From assembly GCA_003697135.1 (NCBI GenBank), contig RFGC01000018.1, positions 1 through 64,000 on the forward strand: DNA of 64,000 bases. The letters run 5' to 3'. Below, piece by piece: positions 43,567-62,142 of this stretch (position 1 is its first letter; every line of letters starts with the position of its first letter). The DNA comes from Acidobacteriota bacterium (lineage in GTDB: Bacteria; Acidobacteriota; Blastocatellia; Pyrinomonadales; Pyrinomonadaceae). The position numbers were made by a program, and so were the translations under genes. The notes below the pieces were generated by a model that saw nothing but the letters and a program-made list of their open reading frames with translations, did not search any database and had not been told where the DNA came from.

Positions 43567-43755
43567 CCAACGTTTCTGAACATTCCCAAATCGAATTTTC
43601 CCATCCCAACAATTTCCGGTCACGTGAAGAAATCCGCAAAAGCTAAATACCTTGCGGTAGGTTCTTGCTTTGTAGAAATGCCGTTTGTTGAAAATTTTTC
43701 TTGAAAAAGCCTCTCGAAAAATGCTTTAATGGCAAAGAAATGGAGGGCAATGAAC

Positions 43756-45102: not shown

Positions 45103-47889
45103 ATGAAATGCAAAGGATTTTCTGAAGGAACTTTGAACCGAGAATTAAGTGCTGAGGATTTTTTCAATCGAGCATTTAAGGTCCTAACAGACTATTGTCC
45201 GCTCAAATGGCAAAGACGTTTATACCTTAAACTCGTGTCTGGCGAAATTCCGGATGTGGTGGATTTGCCGACTGGTGTTGGAAAAACATCAATCATCACT
45301 ATCTGGCTAATTGCCTTCGCATGGCAGATGCTAACAGGAAAGAGTCCATGTTTGCCACGCAGAATTATTTACATAGTTAACCGTCGAACTGTCGTTGATC
45401 AAGCAACAAGAGTTGTAGAGAAAATTAGTCGTCGGATATTCGGAATGGAAAAGACTTCTCATGAAGATAAGGAAATCCTTGAGAAGCTAAAAGAAGCTTT
45501 GCAACTATGCACGGCAATAGAAGTGAATCAGCCTCTCGCAATTAGCACGCTTCGTGGCGAGCTGGCTGATAACGAAGAGTGGAAGGCAGATCCAACTCGT
45601 CCCGCCATCATTATTGGCACCATAGACATGATTGGTAGCAAACTGCTTTTTTCAGGCTATGGAGATAGTTATCGGGTGAGGCCGCATCACGCTGGGCTGA
45701 TAGGTCAAGACGCGCTCATCATTCATGACGAAGCGCATCTTACGCCAGCTTTCAGTGAACTTCTCCACGCTGTCGCTCGTGAGCAAGAAAAATGCAACGA
45801 GCCAAGGCCAATAAAAGTCATTGAGCTTTCAGCTACGTTGAGAAAATCGGGAGAAAAAGTTTTCAAACTTGAAGATGAAGATGAGAAGGATGGTTTCGTG
45901 AAAGAGAGATTAGATGCGAAAAAAAGCCTTTATATTCACGAGGTAGAAACAGGGGAACTAATAAAAAAGATCGTAGAACGTGCGAAAGATTATCAGTCTT
46001 GCAGAAGCAAGATCCTTATCTACGCTCACTCGCCAGAGCAAGCAAAGGGGATCGTAAACGAGTTGAAAAAATCACTTGGTAGAGATAGCTCTGTAGCACT
46101 GTTGACAGGAACTATTCGAGGCTATGAAAGGGATAAACTCGTAGAGAGCAATCCCGTTTTCCTTGCCTTCATGAGTCCAGAATGCCAAGTTGAAGAAACG
46201 TTTTATTTAGTGTGCACATCCGCAGGGGAGGTTGGCGTTGATCTATACGCACATCACATAATTTGCGACGCAACAACGTTGGAGTCCCTGATCCAGCGAC
46301 TGGGGCGAGGTAATCGCGATGGCAAACATGAAGCGGAAGTTCATCTATTCATAGAGAAAAATACAAAAGGGGAAGAGAGAGAACTGCAAAAAATTTGCCA
46401 GGCAACTGTTGAACTTCTGAGAGAAAGGCTGACGAATAAGGGGGATGGGGCTTTTGATGTTAGCCCGAGAGCCTTGAAAAATCTGTTGAACAATCTAAAA
46501 GAGCACGAAAAAGAGGAGGTTTTTACCCCTAAACCGAAAATTGTTCCAGTTAACGACATCTTGCTGGATGCATGGGCAATGACCAGCATACGTGAGAAAT
46601 TACCTGGTCGTCCATCTGTCGCGGACTATCTCCATGGGATCGAAGCGAATCCGCCGGAGACCTATTTGGCTTGGCGTCGGGAGGTTAGTCTTTTAGTCAA
46701 TAGTGAGGTTTCGGAAGACGACATAAGTGAGTGGTTCCAGCACTGCCGCATTGAGAGTCGCGAACGTTTGCGCGATTTAAGCTCTCGAGTTTTCGAAGAG
46801 CTGAAAAAGATTGCCGAAGTTAATGATTTCCCGGTTATCTTAATTGATGAGCGCGGCGGCGCAAAGAAGAGCTCTCTGCACGAATTGACACGAGGAAACG
46901 AAGATGCGATCAGATTTTACAAAGATGCGATCAGATTTTGCACGGTTGTGTTGCCTGTGGAGGCTGGTGGTCTGACCGAGGAAGGGATTCTGGATGGTAG
47001 GGCTAAACCTAGAGACGGTTTAGACATTTTAAGTCAAGATAGAGATAAAGTTCGATTAGAAATAAGAGGTATCAATGAGACTTACGAATACCGTAAGCTT
47101 GAAGATAGCGAAAACTTCACCGAATTAGATGGAAAATACACCTCGGCTAATGAGGTATTAGGAAAAATATCAGGAAATTTGAAAAAATCGGTTGCAATAG
47201 TCCTTCCTTTGCAGCTGCCAGGTGAAGATGAAGAGGAGGTAGTAACGCGTTATCTTGCATTACTGGCTGAGCCTAAGCAGGCTACTACCGAAGATCCAGA
47301 ATCAGTTGGTTACAAATCTGCGCCAAAGCTAAAAGACCACTTAAGATCTGCAGCTAAGATTGCAAGAAAAATAGTGGAAAAACTAGGCTTAGAGGCTTCA
47401 ATAAAAGAAGCAATAGTTAAAGCGGCTGAGTATCATGACTTAGGTAAGGATAGAGAATGCTGGCAGTCATCGGTTTTCAATAATAATCCTAACGATCCTT
47501 GGGCAAAATCAGGACCACAAGGTATGGATTGGCGGCGTCTCGCCGGTTATCGACATGAATTTGGCTCATTATTGGATGCTAAGAAGAAGTTAAATGGCCA
47601 CGAAGAAAGTGATCTCATCCTTCATCTTATTGCGGCCCATCATGGACGAGCTCGCCCTCATTTTGAACTTGATGCTTGGGATAATGAAAGATACGCAACT
47701 TCCGACAATGAGGAAGAGGCTTATGAAGTCATGCGGCGTTATGAGAGGCTACAGCGAAGATTCGGTCGTTGGGGGCTAGCGTGGTTAGAATCGCTGGTCC
47801 GATGTGCTGATGTTATTGCTTCGCGTCAGGTTGTATTGGAAGAATCAACGTTGTTGGAGGAAGTGGGAGATGATCAAAATCAAGGTTGA
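45103..47889 (+). CDS. cas3: Cas3 helicase-nuclease, type I-G arrangement (helicase-HD)
   Basis: Cas3 unwinds and degrades target DNA recruited by the Cascade complex. The 928-residue protein has helicase motifs: Walker A DLPTGVGKTSI (55-63), DEAH (209-212, IIHDEAHLTP), ELSATL, and the late QRLGRGNRDG. The HD nuclease lies at the C-terminus, with LKDHLRSAAK, YHDLGK (H778, D779), YRHEFGSL and AAHHGRARP. HD after the helicase is the layout of subtype I-G (I-U) Cas3. It heads the operon and overlaps the next gene by 20 bases. An in-frame 21-base duplication is visible around residue 605. Confidence 0.95.
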   Translation: MKCKGFSEGTLNRELSAEDFFNRAFKVLTDYCPLKWQRRLYLKLVSGEIPDVVDLPTGVGKTSIITIWLIAFAWQMLTGKSPCLPRRIIYIVNRRTVVDQATRVVEKISRRIFGMEKTSHEDKEILEKLKEALQLCTAIEVNQPLAISTLRGELADNEEWKADPTRPAIIIGTIDMIGSKLLFSGYGDSYRVRPHHAGLIGQDALIIHDEAHLTPAFSELLHAVAREQEKCNEPRPIKVIELSATLRKSGEKVFKLEDEDEKDGFVKERLDAKKSLYIHEVETGELIKKIVERAKDYQSCRSKILIYAHSPEQAKGIVNELKKSLGRDSSVALLTGTIRGYERDKLVESNPVFLAFMSPECQVEETFYLVCTSAGEVGVDLYAHHIICDATTLESLIQRLGRGNRDGKHEAEVHLFIEKNTKGEERELQKICQATVELLRERLTNKGDGAFDVSPRALKNLLNNLKEHEKEEVFTPKPKIVPVNDILLDAWAMTSIREKLPGRPSVADYLHGIEANPPETYLAWRREVSLLVNSEVSEDDISEWFQHCRIESRERLRDLSSRVFEELKKIAEVNDFPVILIDERGGAKKSSLHELTRGNEDAIRFYKDAIRFCTVVLPVEAGGLTEEGILDGRAKPRDGLDILSQDRDKVRLEIRGINETYEYRKLEDSENFTELDGKYTSANEVLGKISGNLKKSVAIVLPLQLPGEDEEEVVTRYLALLAEPKQATTEDPESVGYKSAPKLKDHLRSAAKIARKIVEKLGLEASIKEAIVKAAEYHDLGKDRECWQSSVFNNNPNDPWAKSGPQGMDWRRLAGYRHEFGSLLDAKKKLNGHEESDLILHLIAAHHGRARPHFELDAWDNERYATSDNEEEAYEVMRRYERLQRRFGRWGLAWLESLVRCADVIASRQVVLEESTLLEEVGDDQNQG
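46901..46939 (+). repeat. In-frame tandem duplication within cas3
   Basis: An identical 18-base unit occurs at 46901-46918 and 46922-46939 with a 21-base period, coding DAIRFY-K-DAIRFC. The copies are perfect, so the duplication is probably recent. It preserves the frame and lies between the helicase and HD regions. Confidence 0.85.
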
Positions 47890-48796
47890 TGTTTTGAATC
47901 CCGGTCAATTTTTTGCTTGTTGCGGACTACTGGAACTTTCACATCGCTTATGGCCCGGAGTTGAAGGGCATTTCTCGAAATGCGGTAGTGGGTACTTCTT
48001 CGTAATTGAGCCTCCTCCTAGGGGCGAGTCGAATGATGTTGATTTGAGGTGTTTGCTAAATAAATTGTGTAACTGCAAAGTATCTGGATTGACTGAAGAA
48101 GAACAAAAGGAAAGAAGTGAGTTAGAGAAAAAAAGAAGTGAGTTAGAGAAAAAAAGGAAAGAGCTGTCGGAACTTGAGGAAAATCGTCGGAAGGAATTGG
48201 GCGAAAAAGCGAGAGAAGGAACCCTACACCTTGGAGAACCTTTCAAGTTAACGTTAGATTGGTGGCAAAGTGAAGATGAGAAAGCTACACTGAAAACCTG
48301 GGCAGGCCGCCAGGAGATTCACAAAATAGCGCGTGCAGCACAAGATGCATTAAAGGCTTTACTGTGCAACGGAAAAATAGATTTGTGCGAGTTGCTCAAC
48401 CATGGTTGTATTCTAAGAACACCAGCGGAGTACGCCCAAAAGGACCGCGATCAGGCGAAGCCTGTAGAACCGTTCTGCTTTGATACTCGTAGGTATGTTC
48501 ATGCTCTGAAAGTGGGCTTTTCTTTGGACGCTCAGAACACAGATATACTAGCTTACCCAGCAGTGGAATTGCTCGCTTTAATCGGCATACAGAGATTTCG
48601 CCTATTGCCTTCGGGTCAAAAGTGGTCATTTGAATATGTCATCTGGCTTAGGCCGCTTGGCGTGCCTGTAGCCGCCGCAGTTGCTAGCGGAGTGATTCCG
48701 TTCGTTAGTTCTGAAAGATATTTATTTAGATTCGTGTTTCGTGATGATCAAAAGCGATACAAGGCTTTTGGTCGTGCAACAAAAATCAGCAATTAA
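47870..48796 (+). CDS. csb3: Csb3 / Cas8u-type subunit of the type I-G effector
   Basis: The 308-residue protein starts at the ATG at 47870 with GGAGG 9 bases upstream, overlapping the end of cas3. Its opening MIKIKVDVLNPGQFFACCGL and the motif EPFKLTLDWWQSEDEKATLK are those of the protein that follows cas3 in Geobacter-type I-U (I-G) loci (Csb3), which serves as large-subunit-like part of the complex. About residues 81-115 form a charged helical segment (ERSELEKKRSELEKKRKELS) containing a 21-base tandem repeat. Assignment to Csb3 rests on position and on its start; the exact Cas8u naming differs between schemes. Confidence 0.8.
   Translation: MIKIKVDVLNPGQFFACCGLLELSHRLWPGVEGHFSKCGSGYFFVIEPPPRGESNDVDLRCLLNKLCNCKVSGLTEEEQKERSELEKKRSELEKKRKELSELEENRRKELGEKAREGTLHLGEPFKLTLDWWQSEDEKATLKTWAGRQEIHKIARAAQDALKALLCNGKIDLCELLNHGCILRTPAEYAQKDRDQAKPVEPFCFDTRRYVHALKVGFSLDAQNTDILAYPAVELLALIGIQRFRLLPSGQKWSFEYVIWLRPLGVPVAAAVASGVIPFVSSERYLFRFVFRDDQKRYKAFGRATKISN
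48111..48152 (+). repeat. In-frame tandem duplication within csb3
   Basis: A perfect 21-base unit is present twice (48111-48131 and 48132-48152), coding the repeated KRSELEK pattern of a charged helix. It keeps the frame and may lengthen a coiled coil. Confidence 0.9.
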
Positions 48797-48809: not shown

Positions 48810-50024
48810 ATGAGTAATCTACTGAACAAATACGACGAATGTAATCTACTGAACAAATACGACGAATGGCTCAACGATAACAGCGATGTTGCGGCGCTCG
48901 TTTTGCGCCAACGACTCATACCTGTAGAAGGTAGAGGATCTGTGATCTTCCCACCGACCTATGCCAAACCTGAAAGGGTCAAGGAGGAAGATTGGCTTGG
49001 GTATAACATTGATTATTTCCCTGATGGGACAAACGTTTGCCTGATTGATAGCGTCGGTTCACAAGCGAACAGGATTGAGCCGATCTTCAAGAAAGAGCCT
49101 TACAAAAATCTCGTGCCACAAATCATCATCAAAGTAAAAGATGGCAGAGAAGTTAATTTGCTTGACGCAGGTCACCGAGCTGCCGATGCTATTGTTAGGT
49201 TTTCAGAGCTTGCAGATAAGCTAAAAGACGCTTTCGAAGCCTGGCGAGACAATGGCAATGCTGAACCGCTTGCTAAGATTGCACCGACTTCCATTGTTTT
49301 CGGAAGTTGGGATTCTCGTGACACTCAAGCAAAGATACCTCGCGTGGTTAGTTCTGTTATTCGAGCGTTCAATGTTAAGGTTCTTCACCGTTCCGCACAA
49401 TATATTCCACCGATTGATTATGTAGCTGAGGGTTTGGTTGATCCGCCCGAAAATAAAAGTGCCCAAGACAGACTTTCTGAACTCGGTTTGAGTCATGCCC
49501 CAGCACCTTGGACGCATGGCGGAGTAATAGTTGAGGGTGAAATCCGTCGTGATGCGACGTTGAGTCTTGTGGCTATACGCACTTTGGGAGTTGGACAAGA
49601 TGGTGATGTGCTTAAATTGAGGCGTTATATCTTCGGACTTGCTTTGATAGCCCTATTGATGCCGCAGGATTTCAATCTAAGAGCTGGTTGCCAACTTGTG
49701 CTTGATCCAGAACGTTCCCTCGAGTTTGATTGCGTTCGATTAAATGGCTCCCGAAAGGGCGTTGGAATAACTCTCGAGGAAGCACTTAATTTTGCCACCC
49801 TGGCCGCAGAAGAGTTCAAGGTAGGCGAAAACAAAGACATAAAATTTGAAGGAAAGAGGGCAAAAGAGGAGTTATCTAAATCAAAAAAAGAGCGTAAAGC
49901 TGCGCAGCGCAGTAGGCCAGAAACTGTCGCTAGGGATACATTAAACAAAGAGCAGGAAGCTACAACACTACCTTTGGAGACCGAAGCTCCAAAAGAAGGG
50001 TCAGGAGGGAGTGACAATGGCTAA
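48810..50024 (+). CDS. csb1: Cas7 (Csb1), type I-G backbone subunit
   Basis: Cas7 polymerises along the crRNA in Cascade. The 404-residue protein starts at the ATG at 48810, behind AAGGAGG at 7 bases. Motifs typical of Csb1 are RLIPVEGRGSVIFPPTYA, CLIDSVGSQANRIEPIF, AGHRAADAIVRFSEL, PTSIVFGSWDSRDTQAKIPR and VVSSVIRAFNVKVLHRSAQY. The N-terminus NLLNKYDECNLLNKYDEW comes from a perfect 27-base duplication. A Lys/Glu-rich tail ends the protein. It lies 13 bases after csb3 and overlaps the start region of csb2. Confidence 0.93.
   Translation: MSNLLNKYDECNLLNKYDEWLNDNSDVAALVLRQRLIPVEGRGSVIFPPTYAKPERVKEEDWLGYNIDYFPDGTNVCLIDSVGSQANRIEPIFKKEPYKNLVPQIIIKVKDGREVNLLDAGHRAADAIVRFSELADKLKDAFEAWRDNGNAEPLAKIAPTSIVFGSWDSRDTQAKIPRVVSSVIRAFNVKVLHRSAQYIPPIDYVAEGLVDPPENKSAQDRLSELGLSHAPAPWTHGGVIVEGEIRRDATLSLVAIRTLGVGQDGDVLKLRRYIFGLALIALLMPQDFNLRAGCQLVLDPERSLEFDCVRLNGSRKGVGITLEEALNFATLAAEEFKVGENKDIKFEGKRAKEELSKSKKERKAAQRSRPETVARDTLNKEQEATTLPLETEAPKEGSGGSDNG
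48814..48867 (+). repeat. In-frame tandem duplication at the start of cas7
   Basis: A perfect 27-base unit occurs at 48814-48840 and 48841-48867, coding NLLNKYDE twice within the first 20 residues. The identity of both copies indicates a recent event. Confidence 0.93.
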
Positions 50025-51462
50025 GTATTTTTGTATTTCCGTTACTTTCCTCAATGACTTATTTCACGGAAAGTTGAGTGACGAAGAACCTGAGTGGCCT
50101 CCATCACCTTGGAGATTATTCCAAGCGCTTGTAGCAGGCACGCTTACGGGCTGTCGCAAGAACGGTTGGCCCGATAAAAGAGCAGATGCACTGCGGTGGC
50201 TGGAAAGAAAGCAGCCGCCGCAGATCATCGCTCCTGAGGTGATCAAATCTACACCATACGCGCTCTTTGTTCCGAATAACGATAGCGATAAAGAATTTGA
50301 GCGAGAAAAGCGCCTTACGTCAAAGCTAGTTCGGCCACATCGGATGGTCAAAGGGCAAACGGTGCATTACATCTGGGAGTTAAGCGGTGAGGAACTAGCA
50401 TCAAACAGAGAATATGTAGATGTCCTTATTCAGGTAGCGCGACACATCATCGCTCTTGGATGGGGAATCGATCAGGTCGCATGTAGTGGGTGTGTCTTAG
50501 ATGAAGAAAATGCGATCCTAAAGGAAGGGATTCTTTGGACCCCTCATACAGGGATCCAGATTTCGCAAAAAATGCGGCGTGTTCCTATTGAAGGATCGCT
50601 CGACGATCTTTTGGATTGCTATGGTAAATTTTGTCAGAGCGTCAGAAAGTTCTATCTCTCGCGTAAAGAGCCTACTGCTTTTCAAGAAGTTGCCTATTTG
50701 ACGATCAGGGACAACCTGCCGAGAGCTTATGTGTATTTTGAGTTGCGTTCTAATGATGGTAGCAGGTTTACGGTATTTCGTCAGGTTGATACTGTCAAGG
50801 TGGCTGCTATGGTCCGGCATCTCGCCTGCGAAGAGGCTAAACGTGATTCTCACCAATTTCCTGGTGGCGCTGATCGCTATGTAGCTGGTCATGCAAATAA
50901 CGGAGGCGATAACTTCCCGCGCTTTTCTTATCTTCCACTACCTACAGTAGGGCATCCTAATGCCGATGGTATGATCCGCCGCGTAGTCATCGCTGAGCCT
51001 ATCGGAGGAAACGGCGGCCATGCCCAATGGGCTAAGCGAAGGTTGCACGCTCGTTCGCTTGTAGAGAAGGGGACAAATAAGAAACTAGCGATTCTCTACT
51101 CAGCAGAAAATAATCGTGTTTTGCAGCAGTATCTTGGACCATCTCGACACTGGTCGAGTGTCACGCCGGTTATCCTCCCTGGCTTTGATGATGGGAAGTA
51201 TGGAAAAGCTGAGCGCCTTCTATTGAAAGCGATTAAGCAGGTCGGTTTACATTTGGAGAAGATTGAAGATTTCTTTCTTCGGAAGGCTCCGTTTTGGCCT
51301 GGATCGCAACATCCTTGCCAGTATTATAGACCTGATTATTTGTGCAATTACTCAGCTTGGCATGTGTATTTAAGGTTCAAGGATGAACTCCATGGTCCGC
51401 TCGCATTAGGGCCAGGCAGACATTGTGGCCTTGGTTTGTTCACAAGTGAAAACTTGGATTGA
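50017..51462 (+). CDS. csb2: Csb2 (Cas5-Cas6 fusion), type I-G
   Basis: In subtype I-G this single protein combines the Cas5 function of capping the crRNA 5' handle with Cas6-like pre-crRNA processing. The 481-residue protein starts at the ATG at 50017, 7 bases after AGGAGGG, overlapping the cas7 end. The opening KYFCISVTFLNDLFHGKLSD and the motifs EWPPSPWRLFQALVAG, PHTGIQISQKMRRVP, GPSRHWSSVTPVILPGFDD and GPLALGPGRHCGLGLF are those of Csb2. The glycine-rich C-terminal GPGRHCGLG resembles the RNA-binding G-rich loop of RAMP proteins. It is the last effector gene before the inserted gene pair. Confidence 0.92.
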   Translation: MAKYFCISVTFLNDLFHGKLSDEEPEWPPSPWRLFQALVAGTLTGCRKNGWPDKRADALRWLERKQPPQIIAPEVIKSTPYALFVPNNDSDKEFEREKRLTSKLVRPHRMVKGQTVHYIWELSGEELASNREYVDVLIQVARHIIALGWGIDQVACSGCVLDEENAILKEGILWTPHTGIQISQKMRRVPIEGSLDDLLDCYGKFCQSVRKFYLSRKEPTAFQEVAYLTIRDNLPRAYVYFELRSNDGSRFTVFRQVDTVKVAAMVRHLACEEAKRDSHQFPGGADRYVAGHANNGGDNFPRFSYLPLPTVGHPNADGMIRRVVIAEPIGGNGGHAQWAKRRLHARSLVEKGTNKKLAILYSAENNRVLQQYLGPSRHWSSVTPVILPGFDDGKYGKAERLLLKAIKQVGLHLEKIEDFFLRKAPFWPGSQHPCQYYRPDYLCNYSAWHVYLRFKDELHGPLALGPGRHCGLGLFTSENLD

Positions 51463-51500
51463 AAATTACGAAAAAATTGGAGAGATGAGTAACAAGAAAG

Positions 51501-54476
51501 ATGCTAGAAGATTATAGAGAAATTCACGAAATCGAGGGGAGGCTGATAGAAGCATTAGCCGAGCAAAAACCTAGCTTCATCAGCGAGCTTCCCTTGACTG
51601 AAGAAGATACATTTCTTTTGAAGCAAATTATTTCGAATTACGCTTCGTCTGTGAAAATCGAAGATACTGCTCCGCTAGCATTTTCTTGTTACTTGGTAGT
51701 GATGGGGGTGGAAAACTATGACGAAGGTAATTTCTGGAAAGCAATTGAAGAAGCTTTGGGACGAAGCGGCCCACAGTGGCAGAAGCATTGGGGAGAGGTT
51801 TTTCTCGAAACACTGAAAAAACATCATCTAAGCATTTTCCACTTTCAAGGAGCGCATAAATACGTCTCTCAAATCCTTGCGCACGGCGGCATACCAGATT
51901 CTTGTCTGCAGGACTTTTTTGAGAAACTCCTTTGGCCAACAGTTGATGGAACGTTTGATGCCGATCCAGGACGAGCCGAAGAAATAGTCGCCGAGTGGCG
52001 ATTGAGGCCGGGTTTATATCAATCCACCGATCGGCCAGTCCGACGATTTATCGAATCGGGTGGGAAACCTGCCGCAGATTTCCTCGCTCGTTGCATCGAG
52101 ATGGCGCGCATCGCCTATGATGAGGAGATGGTCCCGCATGCATCGGAGCTAGGTCTTCCAGTTAGAGTCGTCGAAAGATTCAAAGGGTGGTTCGGCAAGA
52201 GCGGTGATCTCAAACGCTCCAAACGAAACACGCTCTTTCGTCGTCCAATTATCAGCCTTGATGATTACGGCGAGGTGCATTGCGTTTTGCCAGAACAGAT
52301 TCTCGACGAGGATGGCGAAGCAAAAGAACTACGTTATCAAATAGTCATCGATGGACATGAATTGTTTTCTGAGCGGATACCAGCATACAAAAGGCAGAAA
52401 TGCGTATGCACGGAAGAGATGGAATTCTATCTGCCTCCTGCGAAGAGGTATGAGATCAGCTTGTGGTGCGAGGCAAAGCGTTTGCGCGATTGGAATTTCG
52501 AGGGGATCCGTCCTGACAGGTGGATAGCGTTCGACAGAAGCGGACGGTTGATCACAGCCCAAGAATTACCAAGAGACGAATTGTGGGTAGTAGTTCCGGC
52601 TGGAATAGTTTTCAATTCAGAGGGTCCGGTTTTGGAAAAGATAGAAGGAACGGGCCAGTGGGAAGACTATGTATTCTGGCGTGTAAATACTTCCGAAGTT
52701 GAAAACTTTTCATTATGTGATAGTTCAGGCCACCTGAAGAAGCTACCATTGCGATCCGAAAAAGAGCCGTACTTGGATGGCAATCCGCTAGAATCAGTTC
52801 GATCACTGAGATTGCCGGTTTACGTATCAGAACTGCCCAAGGTGCTAATTCCTCTTGCTTCGTCCGATGATGTATCACGCTGGGATTTGTTCATCGAAAA
52901 CCTGAGCGATTCGGCAGCTAAGCCGAAGCGCACTTCCATCGGCGAAATAGCCGTTTTCGAGAGCGATCGAAAACTGGCTAGGGTCGCACTCGGCGATGAG
53001 CGATCAGATTTAGGATTTTATCGCGTCAAAGCGCGCGGTCTGCTCGGTCGAGATAAACAATTCGATTTCGCCTTCATTCGGCAGTTGGAATACGAGTTTG
53101 ATAAGCGAATCTACACGGAAGATGACGCGGTAAATCTGATAGTTCTCGTCGATCCGTCTTGCGGACTTGAATCCGATGAAGATGGAATAAAGGTCAGCGG
53201 GAATGACGGTGTGTTTGAAGTGATCTCCTTCAAGCGCTCGCAAGCGCTAGAATTAAAGCTAAAACTCGGTGAGGTCGAATTACCGCTTACGTTCGACATT
53301 CCTCGTCTGCGCTGGGCTTTGTGCGGTGCATGTAGGTCATTTAGTTGGAGGTCTGAGCCCGTTGAGATCCAAATAGAGGAATTAGAAGCCGATGAAATCG
53401 ATTTACGCGTACAAGTTCCTCTCCCGAATGGCTCGATCGCCAAACTATGTCTTGACGGCACGAATCACGTAGTGAAAGGAGAGGTTCGTAATGGCAAAAT
53501 CCAATTTCATTTAAGGCAGTTTCTAGATTCATTAAGAGGCTTAGGCAAGCCTTTAGCCTGTTTTTCTTTGTGTTTTCCTGACACACCTTTGGAAGATCGT
53601 TCGCTCTGTCCGCTTCGGGTCAGAACCAGCTGGAACGTCGAAAACTTCAACTACGCTCACGAGCGAACAGAGGGGAGGCATGTTTTGATTTTCGGCTGGC
53701 GAGACAAGGGGCGCGTTCGAAATCGGCGCCTGCGTCTATGGGATCTGTGGCGACCTTGGCAAGAACCAGTCGTTTTTAGCATTCCCGACGGTGAATCGGA
53801 ACTAGAGGTAGAGATCCCGGTTCGCGATTTTCCCGCTGGAATATATCGCGCGGAGTTTTACGTCGAAGACGAGTATTGTCCGCAGCATCGCCCGCTTTTC
53901 GTTCCGAGCGTGAATGAGATGGTGTTTGACGTGGAAATCGAAGCGGCAGGAGACGTCGAAGTAAATGGAACTCCGTTCCAGTGCTGGCTCACGCACAGGC
54001 TCGCGGGGAAATGTGCGCCTTTTGATCCTACGGTCACACAAATCGGTTCGGAAGATGCAGCGTGTCTAGTTCATGCAATGATCGTAGACCTAGAAAGAGC
54101 GAAGATGGTGTGGAGTGCGTTTCCTGAAACCACGAGGCAAATCTTGCGAAATCGTCTTCGAGAAGTTATCAAGTGCTACGCTGAGCAGTGCCGTGACTAT
54201 GAAAAAGTGCTTCTGCTCGAAGTTTGCAAGATTTGTCGGGTTTGCGACCAATCGTTAATTCCTTTCAAGCCCGGAACTAGAGTGAGAATCGAAGGAAGGA
54301 TAGCCGAGTACCGAGGTATCAGATCTCAGCAAGAAGACTTTATTTGGCTTGTATATAGTGACAGCGAGCGAAAAGTGCCACTTAATCGTTTGAATGAGTT
54401 GATCCCAGAAAGGGACGATGCGCCTCTTAGCAAGCAAAAATCCAAGGGAAGAACTAGAGGAGGTAAGAAGGTATGA
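51501..54476 (+). CDS. Large protein of unknown family, candidate DruH of a Druantia type III-like system
   Basis: I do not recognise a known domain in this 991-residue protein. About residues 1-240 look helical (VRVVERFKGWFGKSGDLKRS near the end). About 250-870 are rich in alternating strands, such as LRLPVYVSELPKVLIPLASS and RLWDLWRPWQEPVVFSIPDG, suggesting several beta-sandwich modules. A cysteine cluster C909-x2-C912-x2-C915 follows. Residues about 925-970 (FKPGTRVRIEGRIAEYRGIR) look SH3/Tudor-like, and the tail is basic. The start is the ATG at 51501; a 10-codon ORF (51485-51517) overlaps it in another frame. Its stop overlaps the helicase start (ATGA), so they are made as a pair. Size, position and partner recall DruH; no sequence match was tested. 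Confidence 0.7.
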   Translation: MLEDYREIHEIEGRLIEALAEQKPSFISELPLTEEDTFLLKQIISNYASSVKIEDTAPLAFSCYLVVMGVENYDEGNFWKAIEEALGRSGPQWQKHWGEVFLETLKKHHLSIFHFQGAHKYVSQILAHGGIPDSCLQDFFEKLLWPTVDGTFDADPGRAEEIVAEWRLRPGLYQSTDRPVRRFIESGGKPAADFLARCIEMARIAYDEEMVPHASELGLPVRVVERFKGWFGKSGDLKRSKRNTLFRRPIISLDDYGEVHCVLPEQILDEDGEAKELRYQIVIDGHELFSERIPAYKRQKCVCTEEMEFYLPPAKRYEISLWCEAKRLRDWNFEGIRPDRWIAFDRSGRLITAQELPRDELWVVVPAGIVFNSEGPVLEKIEGTGQWEDYVFWRVNTSEVENFSLCDSSGHLKKLPLRSEKEPYLDGNPLESVRSLRLPVYVSELPKVLIPLASSDDVSRWDLFIENLSDSAAKPKRTSIGEIAVFESDRKLARVALGDERSDLGFYRVKARGLLGRDKQFDFAFIRQLEYEFDKRIYTEDDAVNLIVLVDPSCGLESDEDGIKVSGNDGVFEVISFKRSQALELKLKLGEVELPLTFDIPRLRWALCGACRSFSWRSEPVEIQIEELEADEIDLRVQVPLPNGSIAKLCLDGTNHVVKGEVRNGKIQFHLRQFLDSLRGLGKPLACFSLCFPDTPLEDRSLCPLRVRTSWNVENFNYAHERTEGRHVLIFGWRDKGRVRNRRLRLWDLWRPWQEPVVFSIPDGESELEVEIPVRDFPAGIYRAEFYVEDEYCPQHRPLFVPSVNEMVFDVEIEAAGDVEVNGTPFQCWLTHRLAGKCAPFDPTVTQIGSEDAACLVHAMIVDLERAKMVWSAFPETTRQILRNRLREVIKCYAEQCRDYEKVLLLEVCKICRVCDQSLIPFKPGTRVRIEGRIAEYRGIRSQQEDFIWLVYSDSERKVPLNRLNELIPERDDAPLSKQKSKGRTRGGKKV

Positions 54477-57400
54477 AGCAGTTGAATCCGTTTGACGCGA
54501 CCGACAAAATACGTGAAAGTTACGTTCGTTATTTGAAGACGCTTTATCCAATTAGCGACCCTGAGTTGCGAAAGCAGTTTGAGGAGATTCTATCCAAGGG
54601 AGAAGAACTCGTAAAGGGCCCTTATCTGGAAGCTACTCCGCCATACCGGTTGGGCAAGAGCATCCGCGAGTTGATTGAAGAGGGACTTCTCTCGCCACTG
54701 TTTGACGAGTTGGCTGGAGAGGCACTTCCATTAGATCGACCGCTCTATGAGCACCAAGAGCAGGCCATTAGAAAGATCCTTCGCGGAAGGAACTTAATCG
54801 TCGCAACGGGTACTGGGAGCGGCAAAACGGAGTCATTTCTCATCCCGATTCTTCATCGTCTCTTTGAAGAGAAATCTCGAGGTACGCTTGGACCAGGTGT
54901 GCGCGCTCTTTTGCTATATCCGATGAATGCGCTCGCCAACGATCAGTTGAAGCGCTTGCGCTCGTTGCTAAAGAAGTGCGAAGCGATCACCTTCGGTCGC
55001 TATACGGGCGAAACGCTCCAAACCAAACGAGAAGCTGAAGATGATTTCCGGAAGAATTTCCGCGGCGAGCCGCGAATCCCAAATGAATTACTATCGCGTG
55101 AGGAGATGCAAGCTGCTCCGCCTCATATTCTGCTTACCAACTACGCCATGCTCGAATATCTGCTCCTTCGCCCGAAAGATTCAGTCTTTTTCGATGGTGA
55201 ACATGCCCGATTCTGGAAGTTTTTGGTGCTGGATGAAGTTCACACCTACGACGGTGCCAAAGGCATAGAGACAGCGATGCTGATACGGCGGCTCAAAGAT
55301 AGAATCGTGCGGAGCGAACGAGGACGTTTGCAGTGCGTGGGCACGAGCGCTACCCTTGGCGGAGGGAGAAGGGACTTCCCGCAAGTAGTCCGATTTGCCG
55401 AACAACTCTTCGATGAACCGTTCGAGTGGGACGAACAAGACGACTCTAAACAGGATGTGGTCGAAGCAAGTCGAATATCTCGAGATGAGTATCCGCAGCC
55501 ATGGGGAGCACCGAAAGCGGAGTTCTACTTGGAAGTCCGCGAAATTCTTGACTCGAATCCAAGTGACTCAATTGCTGTAGCACGGAAGTATGGGGTTCCT
55601 GAAGAAGTCATTTCCTCAGCAAAGAAAGCTTCCAATTCAGCACAACATTTTCTATTCGAGATTCTCAAAGGAGATGCTAATCTCGCACAGTTGCGCACGT
55701 TTCTCGTCGAAAGATCGGACGCTCGTCCCGTCCTGCTTGCTGAAGCAGCTAAGCAGTTATTTCAAGACGAAGAAAACCCAAACGCGCTTATCACCGCTTT
55801 GGTTGACCTCGCAGTTCGGGCTAAACCTGAAAAAGAGCATGCGCCACTGCTTCCAGCACGATACCATCTATTCGTCAAAGCTCTTGAGGGCGGATTCATT
55901 GCGCTTGCTCCTCGGAAGAAGTTGTTTCTCAATCGTCGAGAGAGGATCACTCATGACGGAGAAGAGTTCGTCGTTTTCGAAGCGGCGACATGTAAAAGAT
56001 GCGGTGCAATTTATCTCGTCGGGTTGCCTGAAGATCGCCGCTTCAAACAAACTCAGAAGATCACCGAAGAGAATCAAGAAAAAGCTGCGTTCTTTCTGCT
56101 TGAAGAAGGAATCATCGATAAGGTAGATGAGGACGAGGAAGTAGCGGAAGCAGGGACGGACACGCAAGACTCAACCGAAGCTTATCAGCTTTGCATCCGT
56201 TGCGGCGCGATAGATAAGGTCGGCAGCCTTAGTTCGATTTGCGATTGCGACAGTCGTTGGCAAAGACGGATCATCAAGGCATCGAACGAAAAGGGCGTGG
56301 TCACCCATTGCCGAGCGTGTGGTACGCGCAGCCAGAACCTCGTACATCGATTCTTAACCGGTCAAGATGCGCCAGCGAGCGTTCTAGCGACAGTTCTTTA
56401 CCAAAATATACCAGAGCGCGAAGTTCAAGTTACGAGAACTCGAGAAGAAGACGAATACGGGGAAGCCAAGACATCCACCTTTGCGCGGCGTATGTTGATC
56501 TTCTCTGACAGCCGACAAGATGCAGCTTATTTCGCTCCTTATCTCGGTGAGATTACCTACCTCCCGATTCTTTGGCGTCGGCTTATGGTTCTTACGTTGG
56601 AGAAGTATGTGGACTCAGTAAGAAAGAATCAGTGGACGGTAAGTGATCTTGCGGAATATCTACGGCGAGAAGCGGAAGAACATAGACTCTTTGAAGCGAG
56701 CTTGAGTCGTCAACAGCGCATCGCTGAAGCTTGGAGATGGGTGCTGTTGGAGCTAATGGTGCGTGAACAACGCAACAGTTTGGAAGGACTCGGACTCGTG
56801 AGGTTCTCGTTGAAGAAGCCAGATGGATGGACGCCCGGTAAAACTCTTTCCGGTTTACTCACATCTTCGCCTTATGCTCTCACGCAAGATGAGATTTGGG
56901 AGCTTTTCGAGACTCTACTTGATAGTTTTCGCTTGCAAGGCGCCATAACCTTCCCAAACGAAGTTCAGCCTGGAGACGAGATTTTCAAACCTCGTAACCG
57001 CAGTTACTACTTCCGACAGTTCGGTGCTTTGCCGAATAAGAGCGTGTTCAGTTGGAGTCCTTCTGGCGCAAGCAAGATGAATCGTCGGATGGATTTTGTT
57101 CAGAAATTGCTGAAGAAGTGCACACCGGATGGCAGCGTGTCGCCGGAAGAAGTCCTTGATCTGATCTGGAAAAGCTTCGAGGATGCTCCTTTCTGGAAGC
57201 CCTATTTTAGCGACTCGCAACTTCCGGAAGCAGGGTGCGTTCTACAAATTCGTCACGATTTTTGGCAAGTGATCCCAGGTGAAGACGTTTCATGGTATGT
57301 ATGTCAGACGTGCGGCAACATAACGACAAGAAACTTGAGGGGCGTTTGTCCAACTTATCGCTGCGAAGGGGAATTAAAGGCATGCGATCCGAGCGAGGTG

Positions 57401-59362
57401 AGAAAAGATAATCACTATCGGCATCTTTATTTGAATCTCGCTCCAATGCGCATGGAAGTGCAAGAGCATACGGCACAGCTTACGGGAAGAGCCGCATCTG
57501 AACTTCAAAATCGTTTCTTACTTGGCGAAGTCAACGTCATAAGTTGCTCGACGACTTTTGAACTGGGCGTAGACGTGGGATCGCTCGAAACCGTTTTCTT
57601 GCGAAACGTTCCTCCGACGCCAGCTAACTACATTCAACGCGCGGGGCGAGCTGGCCGTAGGACAGATTCTACTGCATTCGTGTTGACTTTTTGCCAACGT
57701 CGTCCGCACGATCTCAAGCATTATGCCGAACCAGAAAAGATCATCAAAGGCACGATTCCGCCTCCGAGGTTTGAGGTAAACAACGAAAAGATCATTCGCC
57801 GCCACATCCATGCTGTTGCTCTTGCCCAGTTTTGGAAACGGTGCGAGAAAGCCTTCGGCACGGTGGAGAGCTTTTTCTTCTCAGTCGGAGACACGGAGAT
57901 TAAAAGTAGTGAAGAGTTCTTTGAGAAACACCCACTGATTGATTTTCTCCAAGAAAAGCCTGCAGAACTTCAACAAGCCTTGAGACGAATACTTAAGGAT
58001 CAAGCCGAGAAGTTCGATGTGGAAAACTGGAAATGGCTTGAAGATTTCGTCTTCGACGAGAACAGTGTGCTTCGTAAAGCCATGGATGAGGTTTATGATG
58101 ACGTTCGACAGCTCGAATCATACAGAGAGGAGTTGTTTAAAGCCAACAAGCCCTCCGATTATATCTTCAAAACTATCAACACAATCAAGGAAAAAGAGGT
58201 GCTTTCCTTCTTGTCTGCACGAAACGTGATTCCGAAATATGGCTTTCCCGTTGACGTCGTCGAATTGGAACTATGGCACCATGGTGAAGAGACAAAAAAG
58301 CTGGAATTGACCCGCGATTTGCGCATGGCTCTTTCGGAGTACGCACCGGAGAGCCAGATCGTCGCTGCCGGGAGACTCTGGACGAGCAATGCCATCAAGC
58401 GCATTCCAAAACGAGAATGGAGGAGGTACAAGTATGCCATTTGCCCAAATTGTAGTTGTTATCAACGCGTGGACGAAGCTGCAGGAGGCGAATTGCCACG
58501 AAGTTGCGGCAGTTGTAATGAGCCGATGCAAGGGAAAAGAGTTAGAGGCACCTTTATAGTCCCGGAATTCGGTTTCGTTTCGTGCAGCGCTCCAAAAAAG
58601 CCCTCAGAAAGCAGGCCCGAAAAAACATATACGACCCGAGTTTACTACACCAATGAATACGCTAAAGAAGAAAGCTCCCTTGCGGTGCGTTTTGGTGAGG
58701 TTGAGCTATCGGCAAAGGCTGTGGTGGATGGTCGACTCGCTGTGTTGAATCGCGCTGGGTTTAAGGTCTGCTTCAGCTGTGGTTATGCGGAGAGAATGAG
58801 CAATGATAGACGGAAAAAGAATAGCAAAGAGCATAAAACCCCTTGGGGTAAGGCATGCAATGGATATTTGGACGGTCCAATAGACCTTGGTCACGAATTC
58901 AAAACCGATGTCTTGCGACTCGATTTCACCTTGCACGGAGAAGTCCTCAGTCTTCTACAAAAAGAACAATCCCAAGGATCCAGCTCCTACCAAACTTCGA
59001 TACCTGGTGGGAATAGCTTTTGGTTAAGCCTGCTCTACGCTTTACTTGAAGGGGCGAGCGTCTCGCTCTCGGTCGCCCGATCTGATCTCGACGGCTGTTT
59101 ATATCCGAACGGCATTGGAAAAAACCCATCCATCGTGCTTTTCGATAACGTACCCGGCGGAGCCGGCCATGTCCGCCGTCTCACTGAAAATGAAGACGCG
59201 ATCTGTCAAATGCTGCTTGCAGCGCGCGATCGAGTTGACGGACGCTGCGGTTGCGGTTCAGAGACCAGTTGCTATGGTTGTTTGCAGAACTATCAGAATC
59301 AGCCGTTCCACGATGAGCTGAGGCGAGGAGCTATCTACGACTTCCTGACCCGGATAAGCTAG
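54473..59362 (+). CDS. druE: Giant SF2 helicase with DUF1998/MZB-like C-terminus, candidate DruE
   Basis: The 1629-residue protein has the motifs of a DEAD/DEAH helicase: Walker A ATGTGSGKTES (111-121), LLLYPMNALANDQLKRL, ILLTNYAMLEYLLLRP, DEVH (254-257), GTSATLG, TTFELGVDVGSLETVFLRNV, and QRAGRAGRR (about 1055-1063). The middle carries cysteine clusters (CKRCGAIYL, CIRCGA, CRACGT, CQTCG, CPNCSCY). The end has DNVPGGAGHVRRL followed by C1592, C1594, C1600 and C1603 in CGCGSETSCYGC, a DUF1998/MZB-like metal site. This layout is known from Druantia DruE and from the repair helicase MrfA; the size favours DruE. An AGGAGG lies 8 bases upstream. Base composition is visibly richer in GC than in the flanking housekeeping genes. 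Confidence 0.85.
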   Translation: MKQLNPFDATDKIRESYVRYLKTLYPISDPELRKQFEEILSKGEELVKGPYLEATPPYRLGKSIRELIEEGLLSPLFDELAGEALPLDRPLYEHQEQAIRKILRGRNLIVATGTGSGKTESFLIPILHRLFEEKSRGTLGPGVRALLLYPMNALANDQLKRLRSLLKKCEAITFGRYTGETLQTKREAEDDFRKNFRGEPRIPNELLSREEMQAAPPHILLTNYAMLEYLLLRPKDSVFFDGEHARFWKFLVLDEVHTYDGAKGIETAMLIRRLKDRIVRSERGRLQCVGTSATLGGGRRDFPQVVRFAEQLFDEPFEWDEQDDSKQDVVEASRISRDEYPQPWGAPKAEFYLEVREILDSNPSDSIAVARKYGVPEEVISSAKKASNSAQHFLFEILKGDANLAQLRTFLVERSDARPVLLAEAAKQLFQDEENPNALITALVDLAVRAKPEKEHAPLLPARYHLFVKALEGGFIALAPRKKLFLNRRERITHDGEEFVVFEAATCKRCGAIYLVGLPEDRRFKQTQKITEENQEKAAFFLLEEGIIDKVDEDEEVAEAGTDTQDSTEAYQLCIRCGAIDKVGSLSSICDCDSRWQRRIIKASNEKGVVTHCRACGTRSQNLVHRFLTGQDAPASVLATVLYQNIPEREVQVTRTREEDEYGEAKTSTFARRMLIFSDSRQDAAYFAPYLGEITYLPILWRRLMVLTLEKYVDSVRKNQWTVSDLAEYLRREAEEHRLFEASLSRQQRIAEAWRWVLLELMVREQRNSLEGLGLVRFSLKKPDGWTPGKTLSGLLTSSPYALTQDEIWELFETLLDSFRLQGAITFPNEVQPGDEIFKPRNRSYYFRQFGALPNKSVFSWSPSGASKMNRRMDFVQKLLKKCTPDGSVSPEEVLDLIWKSFEDAPFWKPYFSDSQLPEAGCVLQIRHDFWQVIPGEDVSWYVCQTCGNITTRNLRGVCPTYRCEGELKACDPSEVRKDNHYRHLYLNLAPMRMEVQEHTAQLTGRAASELQNRFLLGEVNVISCSTTFELGVDVGSLETVFLRNVPPTPANYIQRAGRAGRRTDSTAFVLTFCQRRPHDLKHYAEPEKIIKGTIPPPRFEVNNEKIIRRHIHAVALAQFWKRCEKAFGTVESFFFSVGDTEIKSSEEFFEKHPLIDFLQEKPAELQQALRRILKDQAEKFDVENWKWLEDFVFDENSVLRKAMDEVYDDVRQLESYREELFKANKPSDYIFKTINTIKEKEVLSFLSARNVIPKYGFPVDVVELELWHHGEETKKLELTRDLRMALSEYAPESQIVAAGRLWTSNAIKRIPKREWRRYKYAICPNCSCYQRVDEAAGGELPRSCGSCNEPMQGKRVRGTFIVPEFGFVSCSAPKKPSESRPEKTYTTRVYYTNEYAKEESSLAVRFGEVELSAKAVVDGRLAVLNRAGFKVCFSCGYAERMSNDRRKKNSKEHKTPWGKACNGYLDGPIDLGHEFKTDVLRLDFTLHGEVLSLLQKEQSQGSSSYQTSIPGGNSFWLSLLYALLEGASVSLSVARSDLDGCLYPNGIGKNPSIVLFDNVPGGAGHVRRLTENEDAICQMLLAARDRVDGRCGCGSETSCYGCLQNYQNQPFHDELRRGAIYDFLTRIS

Positions 59363-59460: not shown

Positions 59461-61257
59461 ATGGACAACTCAGCACTGCTAAAGCAAGAGCCTTCGGACC
59501 AAATACCAGCTCGTATGGTGAATGAGTTCTGCTATTGCCCGCGCCTTTTTTATCTCGAATATGTGCAGCAAGAGTGGGCGCATAATGCCGACACGCTTGA
59601 AGGCAGGCTTGTTCATCGGCGTGTAGATCGGCAGCAGGGAGATATCTCGCTGCCTCAGGAACTCGAAGATCAGGAAAAGATCCACGCTCGGTCCGTGCTT
59701 GTCGGATCAGATCGGCTTGGCGCGATTGCGCGCATCGATCTCGTCGAAATGGAGGATGGCGCGCTCGTCCCTGTTGACTACAAACGTGGCTCGCCCCCGC
59801 CGAAGGATCGCGCTCCCGAAGGCGCGTATGAGCCGGATCGCGTGCAGCTCTGCTTGCAAGGCTTGTTGCTACGCGAAGAAGATTACAGGGTTGATCACGG
59901 CATCATCTATTTCGCAGAAACGCGCACGCGCGTGCGCATAGATTTCACCGATGAACTCATTGCGCGCACGCTCAGCTTGCTCGAACAAGCGCGTCAAGTC
60001 GCTCGTTCGGGACAAATACCGCCACCTCTTGTTGATTCTCCAAAATGCCCACGTTGCTCGCTTGTCGGTATTTGTTTGCCCGATGAAACAAATCTTCTCG
60101 GTCAAGAGTTAAGGGAAAATCAAACAACCGAAATCTCGAAGAAAGGTTCTTCAGTTCGTCGTCTTTTTCCAGCGCGTGACGAGCATTTGGCCGTTTACGT
60201 GCAAGGTCAAGGGCACACTGTTGGGCTGAAGGGCGAGGCATTGGAAATACGAAATAAGGGCGAAATCGTCGCCACAGTTCGTTTAATTGATATTTCGCAT
60301 CTAGTGCTTTTCGGCAATGTGCAAGTTTCAACACAAGCCTTGCGTAGGCTCATGGAGCGTGATTCTGTCATTGTTCACCTTTCATACGGTGGATGGCTTA
60401 TCGGTATTACAACTCCGCCATCATCGAAAAACATCGAACTTCGACTCAGACAATTTTCTGTCGCTAGTGATAAATCGGTTTCATCAAAATTAGCAAAAGC
60501 TTTTGTTTCAGGAAAGATAAGAAATTCCCGCACGTTGCTAAGGCGTAATGCTCGAGAACTACCTAAAAGCGTTTTGAAAAGATTAGCAGAACTTGGAAAG
60601 AAAGCCGAAAATGCCGAGTCAATAGATGAATTGTTAGGGATCGAAGGAGCAGCGGCACATGAGTATTTTTCTCATTTTTCACTAATGTTCAAAAGATCAG
60701 GAAATTCAATAAAAGAGGATTTTGGTGCTTCAAACGACTCTGAAACTTCGTTGCCGGTTCAAGACTCTGAAGTCCAAAAGTTTCTAGGTTTTGATTTTAA
60801 CTCACGCAATCGGCGCCCGCCACGCGATCCTGTCAATGCAATGCTTTCGTTTCTCTACACAATGTTATTGAAAGATATTTTGGTAACTCTTGTCGGCATT
60901 GGTTTCGATCCATATCTCGGATTTTACCATCAGCCAAAATACGGAAAACCAGCATTGGCGCTTGATTTGATGGAGGAGTTCCGCTCGATCATTGCCGATT
61001 CAGTGGCAATCGGACTTATCAACAATGGTGAAATTCGACCGTCGGATTTTGTTACCAGAGCAGGGGCTGCTGCGTTAACCGATGAAGGCAAAAGGAAGGT
61101 TATCGAAGCATACGAAAGAAGGCTCAACACGTTAATAAAGCATCCGCTTTTCAAATATCCGATCAGCTATCGGCGTATTTTCGAGGTGCAAGCGAGACTT
61201 CTTGCAAGATTCCTAATGGGTGAAATTCCTCACTATCCGCCTTTCTGCACCAGATGA
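59461..61257 (+). CDS. cas4-cas1: Cas4-Cas1 fusion, CRISPR adaptation
   Basis: Cas1 integrates new spacers and Cas4 trims PAM-containing prespacers; the fused form is typical of subtype I-G. The 598-residue protein has a Cas4 part (about 1-205) with MVNEFCYCPRLFYLEYVQ, VPVDYKRGSPPPK, and CPRCSLVGICLPDE giving the iron-sulfur cysteines. A Cas1 part (about 240-598) has YVQGQGHTVGLKGEALE, GIEGAAAHEYF (catalytic Glu) and GFYHQPKYGKPALALDLMEE (His and Asp/Glu). A GGAGGG site lies about 7 bases upstream. The DNA is GC-rich in the Cas4 half and AT-richer in the Cas1 half. It begins 98 bases after the helicase. Confidence 0.95.
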   Translation: MDNSALLKQEPSDQIPARMVNEFCYCPRLFYLEYVQQEWAHNADTLEGRLVHRRVDRQQGDISLPQELEDQEKIHARSVLVGSDRLGAIARIDLVEMEDGALVPVDYKRGSPPPKDRAPEGAYEPDRVQLCLQGLLLREEDYRVDHGIIYFAETRTRVRIDFTDELIARTLSLLEQARQVARSGQIPPPLVDSPKCPRCSLVGICLPDETNLLGQELRENQTTEISKKGSSVRRLFPARDEHLAVYVQGQGHTVGLKGEALEIRNKGEIVATVRLIDISHLVLFGNVQVSTQALRRLMERDSVIVHLSYGGWLIGITTPPSSKNIELRLRQFSVASDKSVSSKLAKAFVSGKIRNSRTLLRRNARELPKSVLKRLAELGKKAENAESIDELLGIEGAAAHEYFSHFSLMFKRSGNSIKEDFGASNDSETSLPVQDSEVQKFLGFDFNSRNRRPPRDPVNAMLSFLYTMLLKDILVTLVGIGFDPYLGFYHQPKYGKPALALDLMEEFRSIIADSVAIGLINNGEIRPSDFVTRAGAAALTDEGKRKVIEAYERRLNTLIKHPLFKYPISYRRIFEVQARLLARFLMGEIPHYPPFCTR

Positions 61258-61273
61258 ATCTGTAGGAGGTTAT

Positions 61274-61564
61274 ATGAGAAATCGCTACATAGTTAGCTAC
61301 GATATAGCAGACGGAAAACGTTGGCGCCGTGTCTATAAGAAAATGCGCGGCTTTGGCGACCCAATCCAATACTCCGTTTTCTTGTGCGATTTGCTTCCGA
61401 CAGAACGAATAATGATGATCGAAGCTCTAACGGAAATAATAAACCACAAGGAAGATAGGGTCTTGATAGTTGATGTTGGCCCCGCAAAAGGAACCGGAGA
61501 GAAACGCATAAAAGCTATAGGAAAACAACTAGTTGACGAAGAAAAGATAGCCATAATCGTTTGA
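61274..61564 (+). CDS. cas2: Cas2, CRISPR adaptation
   Basis: Cas2 bridges two Cas1 dimers in the integrase complex. The 96-residue protein starts at the ATG at 61274 with AGGAGG 6 bases upstream. It has YIVSYDIADGKRWRRVYKKM (first strand with the conserved Asp), FGDPIQYSVFLCDL and the late VLIVDVGPAKGTGE. Its size fits. A longer in-frame reading from 61220 adds residues unlike Cas2. It starts 16 bases after the cas4-cas1 stop and is the last protein gene before the leader and array. Confidence 0.96.
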   Translation: MRNRYIVSYDIADGKRWRRVYKKMRGFGDPIQYSVFLCDLLPTERIMMIEALTEIINHKEDRVLIVDVGPAKGTGEKRIKAIGKQLVDEEKIAIIV

Positions 61565-61888: not shown

Positions 61889-62142
61889 GTTTCCACGACC
61901 AAAAAGTCGTGGCCCCATTGAAGCACGCAAATCATCACGCAACCGATCTTCGAACTAACCTGTTTCCACGACCAAAAAGTCGTGGCCCCATTGAAGCGGG
62001 CGCCGAAATTTCACCGTGCGAGATCTTCTCGCAGTTTCCACGACCAAAAAGTCGTGGCCCCATTGAAGCCTTATGTTCGTCATGTTGACATACACGCAAA
62101 ACTAACGTTTCCACGACCAAAAAGTCGTGGCCCCATTGAAGC
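61889..62142 (+). CRISPR. CRISPR array, four identical 36-base repeats, three spacers
   Basis: Four perfect 36-base repeats lie at 61889-61924, 61962-61997, 62034-62069 and 62107-62142, starting GTTTCCACGACC and ending CCATTGAAGC. Each contains a 7-bp inverted repeat CCACGAC/GTCGTGG around CAAAAA. The spacers are 37, 36 and 37 bases (61925-61961, 61998-62033, 62070-62106). The array lies 324 bases after cas2 in the same direction, and the repeat end ATTGAAGC would be the 8-base handle of the crRNA in a type I system. The array is short. No repeat is degenerate. Confidence 0.98.

Follow-up and report, generated by a model that had tools for sequence, protein, structure and literature searches.

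Druantia type III is among the closest described systems. Its DruE carries two C-terminal PLD nuclease domains (PMC12458937, PMC13192584). In the E. coli system, DruE unwinds DNA and prefers 3'-tailed substrates, and DruH, which has helical ends and Ig-like domains at residues 257-748, is the likely sensor with a dimer-dependent nuclease activity (PMC13192584). Of the proteins that serve CRISPR adaptation, the Cas4/1 of type I-G is known to trim the 3' overhangs of prespacers (PMC10274657).

The window analyzed here (64,000 nt) comes from a member of the Acidobacteriota of the same family as Pyrinomonas methylaliphatogenes K22. It holds a complete type I-G locus in the order WYL-cas3g-cas8g-cas7g-csb2-pair-cas4/cas1-cas2-array, as established from curated models and the list of open reading frames (Table 1). 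Cas identities were assigned using curated NCBIfam models and Pfam; cas3g, cas8g, cas7g, csb2, the cas4-cas1 fusion, and cas2 all scored above their cut-offs, the cas8g match being to cas8g2 and that of cas7g to cas7g/csb1. For cas8g, the listed reading frame starts at 47804, and homology begins at about residue 23. The earlier note had placed two genes, encoding 991 and 1629 residues, between csb2 and cas4-cas1 in a type I-G operon, all in one direction and separated by 38, -4, and 98 nt; the layout was confirmed, and the curated cas models bore out the embedding. The WYL gene is kept upstream of cas3g in Pyrinomonas (57% identity) and is therefore part of the locus. The array beside the pair is short, with only 4 repeats. 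A separate cas6-like gene follows csb2 in two other I-G loci (L073:7931-8728 and L074:7442-8263) and in Pyrinomonas (L006:3640-4506); it is missing from the window locus.

Table 1. Features of the type I-G locus and the embedded gene pair (positions in the window).
Feature	Position	Strand	Basis or remark
WYL-domain regulator, putative regulator of the locus, upstream of cas3g	43729..44868	+	Pfam WYL/WCX/HTH_11
cas3g	45103..47889	+	NCBIfam TIGR02621, 663 bits (cut-off 400)
cas8g (csb3)	47870..48796	+	TIGR04106, 168 bits (cut-off 125)
cas7g (csb1)	48813..50024	+	TIGR02570; start inside listed ORF 48741
csb2 (cas5-cas6g)	50011..51462	+	TIGR02165, 264 bits (cut-off 45)
DruH-like partner, 991 aa, new family, ATG start	51501..54476	+	remote profile match to DruH
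DruE-like YprA-family SF2 helicase, 1629 aa, ATG start	54473..59362	+	PADLOC DruE1; Pfam DEAD, Helicase_C, MZB
Cassette (unit of raised DNA identity to Pyrinomonas)	51496..59341		82% over 7901 columns
cas4-cas1 fusion (Cas4g/Cas1g)	59461..61257	+	NF049935, 770 bits (cut-off 560)
cas2	61271..61564	+	TIGR01573, Pfam CRISPR_Cas2; start inside listed ORF 61220
CRISPR array, 4 repeats of 36 nt, GTTTCCACGACCAAAAAGTCGTGGCCCCATTGAAGC	61889..62142	+	similar repeat in Pyrinomonas

Both proteins of the pair have counterparts in Pyrinomonas with 72-86% identity. The dN/dS ratios against Pyrinomonas were 0.21 for the partner and 0.13 for the helicase; between two close copies of the pair, they were 0.45 and 0.21, respectively. 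These ratios indicate purifying selection on both proteins. Because the reading frames are conserved in Pyrinomonas and are under such selection, they are not chance frames, and an origin as chance ORFs or pseudogenes was rejected on the same identities and on dN/dS < 1.

For the 1629-residue protein, the proposed homology to DruE held. The PADLOC model DruE1 was matched with E=2.7e-195 (650 bits) and DruE3 with 9e-161 (536 bits), and Pfam located DEAD, Helicase_C, and MZB domains, so that the resemblance to DruE covers both the core and the C-terminal module. A motif scan found the SF2 motifs I, II, III, and VI intact (GTGSGKT at 113, DEVH at 254, TSAT at 291, and QRAGRAGR at 1055), as is the C-terminal zinc cluster (CGCGSETSCYGC); eight CxxC motifs occur overall. 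The MZB/DUF1998 module lies at residues 1522-1604, and the protein terminates shortly thereafter. By these profiles and motifs, the protein is a member of the DruE/YprA helicase family. No fused nuclease was detected using Pfam and the motif scan: PLD domains, such as those at the C-terminus of the Druantia III DruE, and an HKD motif were both missing. Tree building with 23 DruE-like proteins placed the window clade apart from three E. coli-type DruE3 proteins, on a branch with 100/100 support, so that it did not cluster with them.

The 991-residue partner matched no Pfam, NCBIfam, or PADLOC model, including PADLOC DruH and the DruH/YjiT model NF038336, the cut-off of which was reached by no genome of the host's class. 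Pairwise blastp of the partner against E. coli DruH gave no match, nor did hhalign using a profile of three close partners (alignment A1); a wider alignment was required. With it, hhalign aligned 413 columns to DruH in collinear order beginning at the N-terminus (score 60, E 8.6e-6), with HGGIP of the partner opposite EGGLP of DruH. Exchanging query and template for the same alignment gave a score of 43 over a shorter stretch, and column-shuffled DruH reached at most 24.5 in 60 trials. A further extended partner alignment scored 40-43 in the same register in both directions, with shuffled controls at a maximum of 20 in 40 trials and unrelated families at ≤25. The similarity spanned ca. 410-420 columns in several alignments and was limited to the N-terminal half; its strength depended on the alignment (scores of 40-60; E from 8.6e-6 to 0.0026, all single-comparison values). 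These profile comparisons make a remote homology to DruH likely. The identification of this protein as DruH itself failed for lack of a PADLOC or NCBIfam match, and a remote likeness at the profile level is what is left of it.

An AlphaFold2 model of the partner was of low confidence (mean pLDDT 61, pTM 0.36). The predicted layout features a helical region at ca. 1-240, tandem Ig/FnIII-like β domains at ca. 245-815, a second helical region at ca. 826-912, and a small C-terminal β element; at this low confidence, it may parallel the published description of DruH. A fold search with the whole model returned generic Ig/FnIII chains only, and one with the N-terminal domain returned no convincing match. 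The DruH chain 9tud, although among the PDB sequences, was in neither list of fold matches; its absence is uninformative, since it may lie outside the fold library. The partner family had no match among the PDB sequences, and none was found in the plasmids searched.

The family of the partner's N-terminal domain also adjoins other DruE-type helicases. More distant relatives were found beside DruE helicases in two genomes (G161 and G145), and at four loci (L081, L082, L088, and L089), the domain recurs in a large protein encoded ahead of another DruE-type helicase (in an hmmsearch of a small set, E ranged from 1e-6 to 1e-11); these proteins carried no PADLOC names where scanned. A wider, unnamed superfamily of DruE partners is likely on these sequence grounds. 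The window pair also suggests that DruH sits within a larger group of helicase partners, which the current DruH models fail to detect. Separately, four loci of Acidobacteriota (L079, L080, L085, and L086) encode a protein of 1296-1452 residues directly upstream of a DruE-like helicase of 1412-1442 residues. The two such upstream proteins that were scanned matched PADLOC MzaA over ca. 235 residues. The MzaA-like proteins were rejected as relatives of the 991-residue partner, to which they are unrelated, and these gene pairs possibly constitute another two-gene system.

Four loci emerged when some 85,000 species genomes were scanned with just two peptide patterns, and carriers were few among the genomes of the class and phylum that were searched. 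Relatives of the partner occur in Pyrinomonas (72% identity), in a Blastocatellia genome (37%), in a Clostridiales MAG (ca. 26%, with an inserted coiled-coil-like stretch), and in genome G233, where the pair is split over two contigs. No cas genes were found around the pairs of the Blastocatellia genome (L007; partner ca. 37% and helicase ca. 60% identical, the latter without a fused nuclease) and of the Clostridiales MAG (L012). Since the pair is thus also found outside CRISPR, it is not an obligate part of type I-G. Of what had been named as decisive for the Druantia idea, the match to DruE and the occurrence outside CRISPR speak for it, and the missing match to the DruH family speaks against it. 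Among the class's I-G loci that were inspected, L073, L074, and the Chloracidobacterium-like L067-L072 lack the pair. In the tree, the three CRISPR-resident helicases formed one clade nested within the stand-alone ones with 99-100% support; the CRISPR location is therefore derived.

In Pyrinomonas, the genes are ordered csb2, a cas6-like gene, cas10/csm2/csm3/csm4, CARF-RelE, csx16, the pair, and cas4/cas1; farther along lie cas2 and an array. The III-A module (cas10, csm2-csm4), CARF-RelE, and csx16 (L006:3640-9678) form one operon-like series with the I-G genes and precede the pair and cas4-cas1; the locus seems to be a I-G/III-A hybrid with one common adaptation module. The same arrangement was found on a 12-kb contig assigned to a Candidatus Parcubacteria MAG (L010:1-12186). 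Its genes are 90-97% identical to those of Pyrinomonas (96-97% for the pair), and it is probably a misbinned Pyrinomonas relative.

Comparison of the host and Pyrinomonas DNA revealed one continuous match of 7901 columns at 82% identity, which coincides almost exactly with the pair, versus 67-72% for the cas genes on both flanks. Fourfold sites agreed at 68% in the pair versus 39% in the cas genes (z=12), dS was 0.6-0.76 in the pair and 1.7 to saturation in the cas genes, and GC3 was alike in the former and different in the latter. Since the pair is less diverged than the cas genes around it, the cassette would postdate the divergence of the I-G loci and have come into this slot by entry or exchange; on the simplest reading of the sequences, the two loci each gained the pair or swapped it with one another. 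Purely vertical descent with the cas genes was rejected on the lower divergence, the dS values, the fourfold sites, and the sharp borders. The contrast in identity could alternatively stem from local constraint or a difference in codon bias, an account less favored because the borders of the unit are sharp. The slot directly before cas4-cas1 is the same in both genera, and the upstream neighbor differs (csb2 in the host; csx16, after the III-A module, in Pyrinomonas). The chief argument that pair and locus are functionally linked is this kept slot, as seen in two genera.

Within the host pair, partner and helicase overlap by 4 nt; in Pyrinomonas, the overlap within the pair is 13 nt, and the helicase and cas4-cas1 overlap by 4 nt. 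No terminator-like sites were found on the plus strand in the junctions, and promoter-like sites there were no commoner than in shuffled sequences, although the 98-nt gap before cas4-cas1 could accommodate a promoter of a type outside the scan. Because of the short gaps and overlaps, which are compatible with one transcript, it is plausible that the pair and the cas genes are transcribed together. The WYL regulator may be common to both.

The reading preferred here, with a probability of roughly 0.55, is that a Druantia-like antiphage cassette was captured in the junction between the I-G effector and adaptation genes and that it is an innate arm, probably co-expressed with the cas genes. By analogy with Druantia III, the partner would be a putative infection sensor or scaffold, DruH-like, that responds to infection. 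The helicase would load on DNA with 3' single-stranded tails, such as intermediates of phage replication or recombination, and unwind or block it. Cleavage would fall to the partner or to nucleases acting in trans, given that no nuclease is fused to the window DruE. Innate protection would thereby share expression with an adaptive CRISPR system. We infer an antiphage function, a shared transcript, and this action on DNA for the pair.

In a competing account, the pair would be an accessory of CRISPR adaptation, opening invader DNA or breaking it up so that Cas4/Cas1-Cas2 receives fragments with 3' overhangs to trim and integrate, as a dedicated stand-in for prespacer supply of the RecBCD type. 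The constant slot before cas4-cas1 with its changing upstream neighbor would be expected of such a role, as would the entry or exchange of the cassette at that very slot after the loci diverged and the 4-nt overlap of helicase and cas4-cas1 in Pyrinomonas. Prespacers with 3' overhangs are substrates of the I-G Cas4/1 (PMC10274657), E. coli DruE favors 3'-tailed DNA (PMC13192584), and outside CRISPR, an association of a YprA/DUF1998 helicase with a Cas4-like nuclease has been noted (PMC5704561); because of the trimming activity and this precedent, DNA supply to adaptation is a testable rival. Yet the pair occurs without CRISPR, it is missing from most related I-G loci, and the array next to it in the window has few repeats, so that this account is considered unlikely. 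Its stronger form, in which the mobile cassette sits in the junction because the helicase feeds DNA intermediates to Cas4/Cas1, wiring an innate system to memory formation, is doubtful.

The position might also be meaningless. Defence genes gather in islands, and an autonomous defence pair in such a place could be kept for its own function; stand-alone relatives exist, and the genes flanking the locus are not syntenic between the host and Pyrinomonas. However, the pair occupies the same slot in both genera even though the cassette postdates the split of the neighboring cas genes, and its 4-nt overlap with cas4-cas1 in Pyrinomonas also speaks against neutral co-location, which appears improbable. 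An aid to interference is more improbable still: the helicase would work with Cas3g/Cascade, or the pair would be a safeguard when a phage disables CRISPR. The common direction, the likely co-expression with cas3g-csb2, and a possible common WYL regulator would suit this role, but nothing supports it directly; moreover, Cas3g is present and looks complete, and hence no helicase is missing from the I-G set. The pair is most likely a co-expressed second defence arm.

In this locus, nature has apparently put an innate Druantia-like module and an adaptive CRISPR system into one operon. Since both lie in one apparent operon, whether innate DNA processing feeds or regulates adaptation is testable by gene removal. 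The earlier note knew of no description of such an arrangement, and none was found in the papers searched: in the open full-text literature, a scope outside which subscription journals and some preprints fall, no paper combined Druantia, CRISPR, and type I-G.

Compared with Druantia III (DruH-DruE; PMC13192584, PMC13316683), the pair likewise features two overlapping or closely spaced genes, a large partner first and a large YprA helicase second, the former with remote sequence similarity and a similar predicted layout, the latter with the helicase core and MZB module. Unlike in Druantia III, the partner fails the DruH/YjiT models, the helicase is a 1629-residue DruE apart from the E. coli-type DruE3 in the tree, and the pair lies inside a I-G operon. 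The suggested fit to Druantia III therefore survives in gene number, gene order, and DruE homology and fails in the DruH models, the PLD domains, and the DruE3 grouping. Canonical Druantia III was rejected on the partner's failure with the DruH models and the helicase's lack of PLD domains; the pair is Druantia-like with a new DruH-like partner family. The Druantia III-like/III-B branch of YprA helicases (PMC12458937) shares the DruE-like core and most often has no C-terminal nuclease domain; it is likened by description only, the text of that paper having no mention of I-G or cas4-cas1. The stand-alone pairs (L007, L012, and G233) comprise the same two protein families as the window pair. The I-G loci without the pair (L073, L074, and the Chloracidobacterium-like L067-L072) have the same Cas4/1 and Cas2, and L073 and L074 have the effector genes of the window locus, with the separate cas6-like gene at the pair's slot. 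The system of PMC5704561 also pairs a YprA/DUF1998 helicase with a Cas4-type nuclease; its nucleases are Cas4-like (pfam12705), whereas the nuclease here is part of a CRISPR cas4-cas1 fusion.
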